This document shows positions 29,707-55,168 of a stretch of DNA of 64,000 bases, in pieces; positions within the stretch are counted from its first letter, which is position 1; every line of letters begins with the position of its first letter. Both the position numbers and the translations under genes were made by a program. Origin of the DNA: Blastomussa wellsi. Taxonomy: Eukaryota > Cnidaria > Anthozoa > Scleractinia > Plerogyridae. The notes below the pieces were generated by a model that did no database searches, had not been told where the DNA came from, and worked only from the letters and a program-made list of their open reading frames with translations. The stretch spans positions 777,586-841,585 of the forward strand of contig OX393564.1 of assembly GCA_947652115.1 (NCBI GenBank). Direction: 5' to 3'.

Positions 29707-29839
29707 TATAAATTCCGTGTCTCTAATCAGTCATAACAACAGTGTTGCGTGTATTACACACAGGAACTGGGAACGTGTTTGATCAGACGGAATCACTGAT
29801 CCACAATCTAAATATCTACTTTAAATAGATTGGATACAG
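29707..29839 (+). promoter_or_regulatory. TATA box and non-coding first exon of gene A
   Basis: TATAAA at 29707-29712 is followed by a putative first exon ending at 29839 in a strong donor (CAG|GTAAGTATA). The next plus-strand acceptor that fits is at 31379-31380, one base before the gene A ATG. Parts of this exon (CAGTGTTGCG, TCTAAATATC) recur at the end of the presumed gene B first exon. The assignment is inferred from the donor, the TATA spacing and this similarity. Confidence 0.5.
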
Positions 29840-31380
29840 GTAAGTATATGAAATAACCGGTCTACCTGTTTTATTTTGCATAAACATCAGGAACACGGTA
29901 AAATAACCGTTAGAACGATAGTTAATAAGCGTGTATTTGTCTTGACTCATTTAACATACCTGCCCTGGCCTTGAATCCGGCGTCTGCGTACCAGTTTTGA
30001 GCCACAGACGGCAAAGGGAAGTCGAATGTTTCTCTTTTGGCATTTATTATCGACATTTTGTCCGTGACGGCAAGTTACAAATGCTAAAAAACGGAGGATT
30101 TCAATTGTTTCAAACTGGTCCGAGAGGTGACAGCTCGGCTCTGGTTGTTGGTGCTTTTGGTCAGTATGTATACCGGGATGATAAGAGATAAGCAAGCTGT
30201 ACTTATGAAGGCAATTTGGCCCTCGCTTCATATGTGAATTGAATGAGTTTGTTGTTGGTTTTCGTCCTTTGCTACTCCGGGTTCTCCGGTTTTCCGCTCT
30301 CCAGAAACGGCAAACAGTTTACAGTTCCAGTTCAATCTCGGAATCAATGTAGCTAAGAGCTTCTCGATTTTTCACCCATTACTAAAAATTCCATTTATTG
30401 ATATTTATTTTTATCTTTATTTTGCACTTGAGCCGTGATTATGACAACTAAGCAAATGACAATGCTGATCGCTAACGCAATGTTTATGAGAAACTTATCT
30501 TCATTAAGAAAGACGATTAGATTTGGTTTGGAAGTTGTACTTTAGTGCAAAACGTATTTCTTTTCCGCATATCACCCAATGTAATGATTATGACGGTGAT
30601 TTATTTGATACTCTACGGCCTGCAAGGCACTGAGTAACCTGCACAGGAAGCTGCCTGGTTCAATATAAACTTCCTGCCCTACTCAGAAATGGGTCCTCAA
30701 ATTATGTGTTGGATTTTGACCTAACACAGGTAAAGTTCGTCTGCCACAAACCTGGAGATAAATTCGTGTTACAAGCACCAATTGCTCCACTCATCAATCC
30801 CAAATGATTCGTGCTTAAAGAAGGATTATACCAAGAATCATGGTAACAATGTCAAAATAAGTTGTACTGTAAATACATTAACCCTAAATGAAAACAACTA
30901 TTCGCCATTTATTTCGCATGGCCCGGATAACAAAGGGTCGACTCAATATCCGAATTAAAACTCGTTTATATTGTCTATTTATTTAACATTTATTTAACAT
31001 TACAAGAAATATTGATAAAACATAAAACATAACAAGAAGTTGACATTTTACTCAATGTTCAAAACCGATTGTCCCAAAGATGATTGCTTGTATATAATAC
31101 TGCATGAAAATTAGCAATTCCTCTCATAAAAAAATGATAATTCCGTATCGGTAATGATCGATTAAGGATTGAAACTGGCCGGCCTACAACTACTAAAACG
31201 TACGAATCGTGGCGCCATCAAGACTTGGATCCTGCCATGATTGGCTGTATTCTTAAAGGCATGGGATAAATCTTTATATCAATCGTAGTGGCCGTAGTCA
31301 TGACGAGACCTTATCAATCAAAACTTTTCAGTATTCCATTTATGGTTTCCTAACAAGATTTCATCTCTTTCTTACTTTAG
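29840..31380 (+). other. Presumed 5' UTR intron of gene A
   Basis: Runs from the donor at 29840 to the acceptor CTTACTTTAG at 31380. The short open frames inside (about 29950-30230) show no domain. No repeat boundaries identified. Confidence 0.4.
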
Positions 31381-31381
31381 A

Positions 31382-52660: not shown

Positions 52661-54759
52661 ATTAGCCTGCTAATACTGCTGTCACTTACGTTACGCCAGT
52701 ATGTGAGTACCGCGCTAGATTACGTTCCTTTCTGGATTTGGTTTTCCAAAAAAGATTAAGACTGGGAAACAAAGTTGGTCAGATCACAGGTGGTCCAAGC
52801 TCGATATACCCTATATGCCGGAGTGTTCAATGGATTACACAACAGTCGAAATATAACATGTAATTGCAGTGTTTTTCACGCTTGGTTATAGATTTTAATA
52901 ACTGATTTTGTATCACTTATATATAATTTTTCTAGTTTTACTATCAGTATTAGTTTTTAGCTTTTAGCAGTGTCCCCTAATTAGTATGGGTACTATTCCG
53001 GGCTAAAAGGTTTTGACACGTTAATAAAGTTATTACTTTTACTTACTTACTTACCTGTGTAGGGGGAAAACGTTTGGATTTAAAACTAAAGAGTAAAATT
53101 AAGATTTAATAAAAATAGCTTACCTCTCCGGCTTCCATCGTGTCTTTCTTTTTATCCTGTGAGGTTTTGGGAATAAGCGTACGGGGAATTTTTTGCCGGG
53201 CGGGGTAGAGGGGGTGAACCATTTGCCCAAAGAATTCTCCCGGCCCGTACCTTTGTGGTCAAATTATAACGCTATTTTTAACCCGAAACCCTTACCAGCG
53301 ACAAAAAAAGACACGATGTGATTTTTAACAATTTTTATTTTAATCGAATCGCTTGCCCCATACAAATCTTTATATTTCTACTGTTGAACACTCATATATC
53401 GCATTGAACATTCATACATCGAGCTTGCTGAGGTTAGTTCGATCGTCGCTTAGTTTAATTCATCTCCAGTATATGCCAAGACGCCAGCCTGTCTTGGTAT
53501 TTAAATTACAATTTCTAGTATTTAGAAAATGCCAGAAATTGAAGACTGTTTATGAGAGTCCAATGTCCAAAAGTAGTTCCCTAGAGAATGATTTCCTGGC
53601 GCTTTAAACTTTCGAAACCCATTTAGTCGATCAATAAAGTGAAACAATGTTGAACACATAAGATGACGAAGAGAAACGCACGGAGAGTGATTATAAACGC
53701 TCAAAGAAGAACTTTTTTAAAAATATTATTGTTCTGATCCTTCGGACCCTGATCCATAAGCTTGCTCCCTGTAGCAAACGAGACGTAAGTCTTTCATCAG
53801 TCAGTGAAACCAGTTTTATTCGAAGTAAAATTTCGCGGTGAAACGAGAAAGGGTTTTCACCGGCGAGCACGACAATACAATAACAATCCCCCAATCACCC
53901 CGAAAATCAATACAATAATACCTTGCTACAATGCTAAACTGTGCAGTAACGCTAGACGCGTGACAGAACAATTATTGAGGCTCACTTTGTTAAAATCCTT
54001 TGTTATCTTATTTGAGAGAGTTACTTAAAGTGATTCCCTAGAGGTCAAAAATATAATTTCTGGTCTGTTTGTCAATCCACCGTGAAGAAAAAGATGGCGG
54101 CTGGTACATTTACCTACAATGCTTTGCGCATGAAAACCCTAAAAGAGCGTATAAAAAAACAAAGAAAAGTTGTAAGTCATTCAAATTCTGCAACAGCAAT
54201 GTTTTCAGTAGCAGGAATGACTTCCGTTAAACCATGCCTTGCTGTATGTCCAGTGGGCTTTGTTTGGTTCGCAAGGTATTGTGGTAAAATGTACATCCGC
54301 CATATTTTTTCTTACGGTAGATTAGGCTGTCCGGTTAAGATGGCGTTGCTGATTGTTTCGTCAGTGACGAAAACAAGTGTTAAGTAGAGTAGATCAGTTA
54401 GGGCCAGAGAAAAACACAGACTGTAAATCAGGTCGGGAAGGGATACTTTGTACAAACCTCCCAGTATCATTCACGGAATGGAGAATTTCATAGACAAAGA
54501 GGGAAAATTGACGTTTTAAGTTTAGCTTAATATATACTCGCTGGTAAAATATGTCACTTTCCTAAGCCGTAAATCTGAAGAAGAAAAGCCATATAAAGGA
54601 TGGTTAGTAGCTCGAGAGGTCAATTCCAACTTAGCAATGTAAAACAATGAACACAGCTAGCCTCAGTCTTGAACCCAAACCTCTAGAATACGCTTACCAA
54701 CGAGATTCCCTTTTTAACGCAGAGAGAAAAACGATACTGATTAATCTCTCTTTCTTCAG
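52661..54759. other. Region between duplicated promoter block and gene F
   Basis: Around 52840-53055 the sequence ends in GTTATTACTTTTACTTACTTAC, which looks like a LINE 3' tail with a short tandem repeat. Near 54094 a good initiation context (AAGATGGCGGC) opens about 26 codons to a donor-like GTAAGT, but I recognise no domain. Otherwise nothing supported. Confidence 0.35.
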
Positions 54760-54808
54760 CCACTGACTGCAAAGAAAAACCGGCAATCTAACACAAGCGG
54801 GACTTGAC

Positions 54809-55168
54809 ATGGAGCTTATTTTAACCTGTCTCCTTTTGGCGCTGGTCACTCTTCTTATCATCTCAGTCATCATATTAGCGATGTACATTGATCAACTTAA
54901 AAAAACCGTTGCAGTGCTGGAAAGGCCAAGTGTTTACAGCAACCCAGTCAATTTGATTGAACTTCGTAAAAAAGATTCTAAGGCTCCATTACCAAGGCCC
55001 ATATCTGGTACGCGCCCTTGGATGAAGGAGTCTATGGAAAGCATTGTTATGGTTCCTTCACGGCGGGAATCCCCAAAGGAAGTGTTCCGCAAGGACGAAT
55101 GTTTATTTGTGGCGAATACGCCCTCGTGTGAAACGTTTGGAATACCGACTGTCAAAAACAGTGCCTGA
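54809..55168 (+). CDS. Gene F: small transmembrane adaptor-like protein, one YxN motif
   Basis: 119 aa. The ATG lies 50 bases after an acceptor (CTCTCTTTCTTCAG, ending 54759). Residues 3-26 are a strong hydrophobic helix with only two residues before it, followed by a short stop (DQLKK). The tail has VYSNPVNL at about 42-49, one YxN, and a proline-rich APLPRPISGTRP that could bind SH3 domains. It is shorter than A, B, D and E and only architecturally similar. It is the last member of the cluster; the LINE insertion begins about 130 bases after its stop codon. Function unknown. Confidence 0.6.
   Translation: MELILTCLLLALVTLLIISVIILAMYIDQLKKTVAVLERPSVYSNPVNLIELRKKDSKAPLPRPISGTRPWMKESMESIVMVPSRRESPKEVFRKDECLFVANTPSCETFGIPTVKNSA

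Follow-up and report, generated by a model that had tools for sequence, protein, structure and literature searches.

A Cluster of Coral Genes Encoding Putative Membrane-Anchored Phosphotyrosine Adaptors in Blastomussa wellsi

Organization of the Locus

The stretch analyzed here, hereafter the window, comprises 64,000 nucleotides of contig OX393564.1 in the genome assembly of the coral Blastomussa wellsi (368 Mb, 124 contigs). Within a region of 25 kb, it carries six plus-strand coding exons, which we named A to F, each encoding an N-terminal or nearly N-terminal helix followed by a basic stop and by a tail that in some of them is studded with Tyr-x-Asn (YxN) motifs of the GRB2-docking type. 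The coding parts start at 31382 (A), 35751 (B), 40109 (C), 46055 (D), 49455 (E), and 54809 (F). Helices were called by hydropathy scans: in a scan over 19 residues, 0–12 residues precede the hydrophobic segment in each of the six, and the basic stop would place the tail inside the cell. A polypyrimidine-AG acceptor lies 1–49 bases upstream of each of the six starts, defining exon starts at 31381, 35710, 40092, 46052, 49452, and 54760, respectively. Because each coding start sits just behind a splice acceptor, a 5′ noncoding exon is likely. A splice scan found four strong donors, at 29840, 33968, 48882, and 52249. The first closes a probable noncoding exon 1 of gene A (29707–29839, plus strand; limits read from the sequence), which begins with a TATAAA-like box (29707–29712) and ends at CAG/GTAAGT. 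The third closes a probable exon 1 of gene E (48750–48881, plus strand, start approximate), ending ATGAAG/GTAGG. This area is repeated at 52058–52453 on the same strand, with stretches of 67% and 91% identity and the donor at 52249; the duplicate is a possible exon 1 of gene F.

An earlier note on this DNA described six plus-strand genes with a very short N-terminus, one helix, and a basic stop, and both hydropathy and acceptors bear this out for all six. It had also given all of them acidic tails, which does not extend to F (net charge +5) and hardly to C (only −3). The three to five YxN motifs announced for A, B, and D were recovered in B (four) and D (three), but the five of A lie beyond a frame break. 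The six genes are not equivalent: in this assembly, intact tails with multiple YxN motifs are found in two of them, B and D, and not in three. By sequence, the cluster is made of an A/B pair together with D, E, C, and perhaps F.

The B Family and the Frame Break in Gene A

Gene B (35751–37610, plus strand) encodes a predicted protein of 619 amino acids with a membrane helix devoid of charged residues and a tail of near 590 residues. The tail harbors the motif SYLQI, a pair YANV-x7-YCEI resembling an immunoreceptor tyrosine-based activation motif (ITAM), YxN sites, and the C-terminus IYNNDIIDV. A decayed copy of the B membrane exon, with two internal stops, precedes it on the same strand (35389–35547; 35389–35520 is 85% identical to 35760–35888). 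Searching with B identified 18 relatives, among which Desmophyllum pertusum OS493_006579 and Oculina patagonica LOC144657795 are named entries, and the same search of the B. wellsi genome returned matches only at places in the window.

Gene A is a paralog of B split over two plus-strand frames that overlap and are one base apart. The first (31382–32356), 30% identical to B over 194 amino acids, encodes the short N-terminus, the helix, and a tail with GYLVV and YLIP. The second (32346–32798), past an apparent one-base frame break, encodes the tail with five YxN motifs, and its C-terminal part aligns with the C-terminus of B. Ten GT-AG introns of at least 50 bases would restore the frame in the stretch scanned (donors 32150–32356); none is convincing. 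An intron is disfavored because both frames align with neighboring stretches of the B relatives, in an alignment where the last nine residues of A were misplaced by the aligner. The break may be an assembly error or may mark a broken gene.

The D Family

Gene D (46055–46708, plus strand) encodes a predicted protein of 217 amino acids with a CVCC helix, the membrane edge LCVVVRRIRR, the three motifs YSN, YEN, and YQN, and RLQTMDI near the C-terminus. A search with D found seven relatives, and a D profile found 43, including six of these seven, for a total of 44, of which D. pertusum OS493_006577 is a named entry. In the B. wellsi genome, the D search returned D, E, and one nonsignificant match (E-value 3.5). 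The earlier note recognized no ortholog of these proteins; at the level of corals, this no longer holds, as there are 18 B-type and 44 D-type relatives, many of them unannotated. Four of the eight B relatives located on contigs larger than 20 kb match the contig of a D relative in exact size (4,719,912; 1,085,503; 142,378; and 29,156). We read these four pairs as sharing a contig; on the smallest one, B and D would lie no more than 29 kb apart. Concerning a common origin of the two families, B obtained no score against the D profile, and a profile comparison gave only 32% probability.

The coding exon of gene E (49455–50081, plus strand) is 53% identical to D (dS 0.44; dN/dS 0.74, bootstrap 0.52–1.11) and is by these values a recent copy of D without any YxN, the RLQTMDI end being retained. 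In a tree of the 43 out of 46 D rows longer than 170 amino acids, D and E grouped with P0001 and P0003 (89/93, not a starred branch), and E forms a long branch of unsure place. Gene C (40109–40507, plus strand; 132 amino acids), which also lacks the YxN block, scored 19.9 against the D profile, a value reached by none of 2000 layout-keeping shuffles, indicating a diverged, distant relative of D. For gene F (54809–55168, plus strand; 119 amino acids, one YSN, basic tail), a score of 9.2 was reached by 4 of 2000 such shuffles, and its membership is doubtful; it is at most a distant D relative. More doubtful still is that of the first frame of A (7.0; 12 of 2000).

Three D-type paralogs, P0056, P0063, and E, lack the YxN block, and each has a different place in the tree. 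P0056 and P0063 lie on contigs equal in size to those of the motif-bearing copies P0053 and P0041, respectively. The C-terminal RxxTMDI (46673–46705 in D) is nearly invariant (R in 30, T in 31, and D in 31 of 31 rows). Despite the loss of YxN, it is kept by E and P0056, and P0063 has RxxTLDI. It resembles a basophilic kinase site or a further docking end. Cys26 sits where the helix of D meets the inner edge of the membrane and is present in all 28 rows covering it, and a CxCC pattern in the outer half of the helix is found in 24, 26, and 22 of 26 rows, cysteine by cysteine. RxxTMDI and Cys26 are unexplained constraints on the D family.

Enrichment and Conservation of the Tyrosine Motifs

YxN counts were compared with those of 20,000 shuffles of the same tail. 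The D tail has three YxN (shuffled mean 0.48, p = 0.007), the second frame of A five (mean 0.95, p = 0.0008), the F tail one (p = 0.04), and the C and E tails none. The second frame of A, B, and D show the three highest counts among the 70 stop-to-stop frames of at least 90 amino acids in the window. The excess is family-wide. In a nonredundant D-family set of 31 rows (<90% identity; E, P0056, and P0063 kept), we counted 89 YxN, with at least three in 22 rows, two in 6, one in 1, and none in 2; over 2000 shuffles, the total averaged 14.8 and never exceeded 31. The 17 nonredundant B rows contain 55, where shuffles averaged 22.1 (maximum 40).

The three tyrosines of D are present in 24, 24, and 28 of the 31 rows and the asparagines at +2 in 27, 23, and 29. 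These six columns are better conserved than random tail columns (0.83 vs. 0.55, p = 0.0026) and than nearby ones (0.83 vs. 0.59, p = 0.0015). In the B family, Tyr150 (SYLQI), Tyr540, and Tyr551 are found in 17 of 17 rows; 16 rows have Tyr585 and Tyr612, and the residue at +2 of these two is likewise Asn in 16. Motif conservation is thus clear in D and restricted to particular sites in B. Tyr540 and Tyr551 form the ITAM-like pair: YxxV-x7-YxxI, with identical spacing, is present in 17 of 19 B rows, window B counted. Of the 17 nonredundant rows, 16 have Val and 1 has Ile at +3 of Tyr540, and 16 have Ile at +3 of the second tyrosine. At Tyr540, +2 drifts (His in 8, Asn in 7) while +3 stays Val or Ile, which fits an ITAM-like pair. 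A Glu occupies −3 of the first tyrosine. The ITAM consensus is YxxL/I-x6-12-YxxL/I; the B pair departs from its strict form by the Val at the first +3, and its spacing fits in 17 of 19 rows.

Candidate Readers and Kinases in the Same Genome

Scanning the B. wellsi genome for SH2 domains gave 44 matches. One (L005) is closest to SYK (2.9e-46; ZAP-70, 3.2e-36), the match covering the SH2 part. Another (L007) combines SH2 with a stretch reading by eye as ankyrin repeats, presumably the layout of Shark, and L001 is a Src-family kinase (7.4e-155). With a GRB2 query sequence, we identified two GRB2-family genes on one contig (C10), with SH3, SH2, and SH3 exons; for the SH2 half, located in L033, the match to GRB2 reached 7.8e-25. 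Both keep a tryptophan (FLWVVKF and FLWIKKF) that we take to be the EF1 position. A Thr-to-Trp change at EF1 is described as shifting the LCK SH2 domain to Asn at pY+2 (PMC12470777).

The residue at −1 of the YxN sites is Ile, Leu, or Val in 122 of 144 cases (75 of 89 in the D family, 47 of 55 in the B family) and Asp or Glu in 5 (5 and 0, respectively). Lck is reported to favor a bulky hydrophobic residue at −1 and not to tolerate Asp, ZAP-70 strongly prefers Asp there, and LAT sites keep an acidic −1, according to the account in PMC5089863. The coral tails therefore look like Src-type rather than LAT-type substrates.

Comparison with Known Systems

Transmembrane adaptor proteins (TRAPs) are defined by a short extracellular part, a single transmembrane helix, and a long cytoplasmic tail with tyrosine motifs (PMC2803307). 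The short outer part and single helix are found in all six proteins, by hydropathy and with the orientation deduced as above. A tail with several tyrosine motifs is seen in B, D, and most of their relatives, is split in A, and is lacking in C, E, and F. LIME, PAG, and SIT have the same layout as the coral proteins. LIME is moreover phosphorylated by Lck, a Src-family kinase (PMC2803307), in which it resembles the Src-type coral tails. The raft TRAPs LAT, NTAL, PAG, and LIME carry a juxtamembrane CxxC that serves in palmitoylation; the cysteines of the D family show a partly similar pattern and are not at the CxxC position.

With LAT itself, the coral proteins share the short N-terminus, the single helix, the acidic tail, and about three GRB2-type YxN sites. 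The GYLVV of the first frame of A is also like the letters that we take to surround LAT Tyr132, but in A it is in a different frame from the YxN motifs. Tyr132 is the PLC-gamma site of LAT (PMC7517355). Once phosphorylated, LAT binds the SH2 domains of GRB2 and GADS, and the coral has candidate motifs and GRB2-family readers for a similar interaction. LAT differs by Asp or Glu at −1, where the coral sites have Ile, Leu, or Val, and the ITAM-like pair sets B apart from it. The Pfam LAT model had no match in 7 window frames (E-values up to 1) or in the 19 B and 46 D alignment rows (up to 0.1), whereas a control LAT sequence matched it at 1.8e-124. The D profile reached LAT with 11% probability, over the YxN stretch. 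Pfam matches among the 65 rows (up to 0.1) are scattered, the best being PRIMA1 (0.0029, in 2 of 46 D rows). LAX, NTAL, SIT, PAG, LIME, and TRIM, for which Pfam should hold models, were not named among the matches of the window frames or rows, with no control run. The earlier proposal of an ancient LAT is thus unsupported. The interpretation given in the note is otherwise supported in part: the layout, the motifs, their conservation in D and at certain B sites, and the GRB2-, Syk-, and Src-type readers speak for it, and the Src-type −1 sets the sites apart from those of LAT. The receptor-proximal and immune setting that the note proposed stays conjectural. By sequence, the coral proteins would work like TRAPs, yet without homology to LAT, with a Src-type −1, and without cysteines at the CxxC position, they fall outside LAT.

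The ITAM subunits CD3 zeta, DAP12, and CD79 have paired YxxPhi motifs, an 11-residue Tyr–Tyr step, and an acidic −3. Coral B is like them in all three respects and differs by the Val at the first +3, its uncharged helix, and a long tail with GRB2 sites. Among cnidarian proteins, the Alr proteins of Hydractinia are receptors with ectodomains, of which there is none in the coral cluster. They carry tyrosine motifs of the ITAM type and of its inhibitory counterpart (ITIM; PMC12065747), and immune-type tyrosine motifs are what they have in common with the coral proteins. Among the matches listed in the open PMC literature, no report of cnidarian TRAP or ITAM-type proteins like these was found.

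Neighboring Features

On the minus strand, adjoining the cluster, 24372–28209 contains a CARD frame (2.6e-14) and a caspase frame (5.5e-51), probably belonging to one CARD-caspase gene. On the plus strand, a retroelement reverse transcriptase frame (55268–56680), which is broken by a stop codon at 56063–56065 and whose first part matches RVT_1 (4.1e-31), lies directly behind F, followed by a rhodopsin-type G protein-coupled receptor in a single open frame (59082–60044; 7tm_1, 4.6e-53). Further upstream on this strand are a CHRD domain exon (10398–10724; 9.8e-08), probably of a chordin-like gene, and a short-repeat array (7163–7685) reading SDQSQTVNCQIRVRLSTVRSE in two frames.

Discussion

We favor, with some confidence, the view that this locus encodes cnidarian membrane-anchored phosphotyrosine scaffolds that are TRAP-like, driven by Src-family kinases, and dock GRB2. 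A single helix would anchor the B and D types in the membrane, with hardly any residues exposed on the outer side, and Src-family kinases would phosphorylate their tail tyrosines, which are preceded by Ile, Leu, or Val. The pY-x-N sites, about three per D molecule, might then bind the SH2 domain of GRB2-family proteins, which would recruit the partners of GRB2 to the membrane and permit multivalent cross-linking. The ITAM-like pair of B could be a docking site for Syk, through its tandem SH2 domains. C and E retain the helix (and E also RxxTMDI) and have no docking block; they may be passive or competing paralogs, or may be decaying. What the sequences show is the anatomy, the relatives, the conservation of the D motifs and of certain B sites, and the genes for readers and kinases. 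Orientation, phosphorylation, SH2 binding, an upstream receptor, and any immune role of B and D are what we infer from them; an immune role of the cluster is a guess.

Several results weigh against this interpretation. Three of the 31 D-family rows (E, P0056, and P0063) have one YxN or none. The four YxN of window B exceed the shuffled mean of 1.43 marginally (p = 0.047), and its ITAM-like pattern, taken in B alone, has p = 0.094; the pair is absent from the D. pertusum row P0026 and from P0025, the latter short. When the B columns were chosen by a prior rule, which took Tyr and Asn at each of the four YxN sites in window B, their modal conservation did not exceed that of the tail significantly (0.71 vs. 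0.66, p = 0.28); measured by identity to the window residue, the same columns give 0.68 against 0.47 (p = 0.037). Tyrosines as a class are likewise unconvincing in B (modal 0.68 vs. 0.66, p = 0.38; identity, p = 0.043) and borderline in D (p = 0.053 and 0.018). A test of eight B columns, matched by 0 of 20,000, is circular, the columns having been picked after viewing site conservation, and all conservation and shuffle tests ignore shared ancestry. Lastly, three B relatives (P0012, P0018, and P0019) begin with a hydrophobic leader, which may be a signal peptide or intron read-through. The D relatives P0028 and P0030 hint at the latter, as their “FQFTMD” and “SFQLMD” look like the translation of a TTTCAG acceptor. 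The failure of B under the prior rule led us to lower our confidence in TRAP-like scaffolds and in the coral module suggested further below, and to raise slightly that in sorting signals and in chance, both also considered below.

A serious alternative, to which we nevertheless give less than an even chance, is that these are docking proteins for receptor tyrosine kinases, used like FRS2 or Gab in growth or development rather than immunity. GRB2 sites serve such kinases in animals, and none of the present results links the genes to immune functions. FRS2 and Gab, however, have a PTB or PH domain, and a scan of the alignment rows (19 + 46 = 65, window proteins included) showed neither at E-values of 0.1 or less; the ITAM-like pair of B is also at odds with such a use. 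FGFR docking proteins are the subject of a study in Hydra (PMC7260276).

The ITAM-like pair would, conversely, be expected if B were mainly an ITAM-type subunit partnering ligand-binding receptors, which we consider unlikely. The pair conserved in 17 of 19 rows, its Glu at −3, and the Syk-type SH2 in the genome agree with this, as does the ancient ITAM/Syk link proposed in PMC5978004. The Val at +3, the lack of significance in B alone, YxN sites that add a GRB2 logic, and the length of the tail do not. ITAM subunits pair with receptors through a charged helix residue, and the uncharged helix of B speaks against a DAP12-like identity.

We consider it improbable that these are small membrane proteins whose tyrosines act in endocytic sorting (YxxPhi signals). 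Yxx(V/I) sites such as those of B also fit the AP-2 sorting consensus, a further point against phosphotyrosine docking; seven sites of the B tail fit Yxx(L/I/V/M) (p = 0.03 by shuffle), and +3 is hydrophobic at Tyr150, 540, 551, and 585. The D tail, however, has no Yxx(L/I/V/M). Moreover, the D motifs and the B sites Tyr585 and Tyr612 keep their Asn at +2, and 15 of 16 rows have Asp at +3 of Tyr612. Chance occurrence in functionless disordered tails containing Tyr and Asn, compatible with the marginal value and failed rule of B, the empty tails of C and E, and the single motif of F, is contradicted for D by the conservation of the motif columns and by the family-wide YxN excess, and is very improbable.

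Returning to membrane-anchored scaffolds, we tentatively suggest, at well under even odds, that corals have a proximal phosphotyrosine module of their own, which apparently arose independently of that in vertebrates. In it, B would combine a Syk-docking ITAM-like pair with GRB2 sites, and the linked D would multiply the GRB2 sites. If so, a single coral protein, B, would join jobs that T cells split between CD3 and LAT, and the B/D module would take the place left empty by LAT in the Src/Syk signaling of cnidarians. For ascidians, a review reports nearly the whole ITAM/ITIM pathway but states that homologs of LAT and SLP-76 are missing (PMC12065747), and the ancient link between ITAM and Syk has been put forward for Syk-bearing animals, among them cnidarians (PMC5978004). 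The coral proteins are concrete candidates for the membrane scaffold in such an ITAM/Syk pathway, a question that can now be tested.

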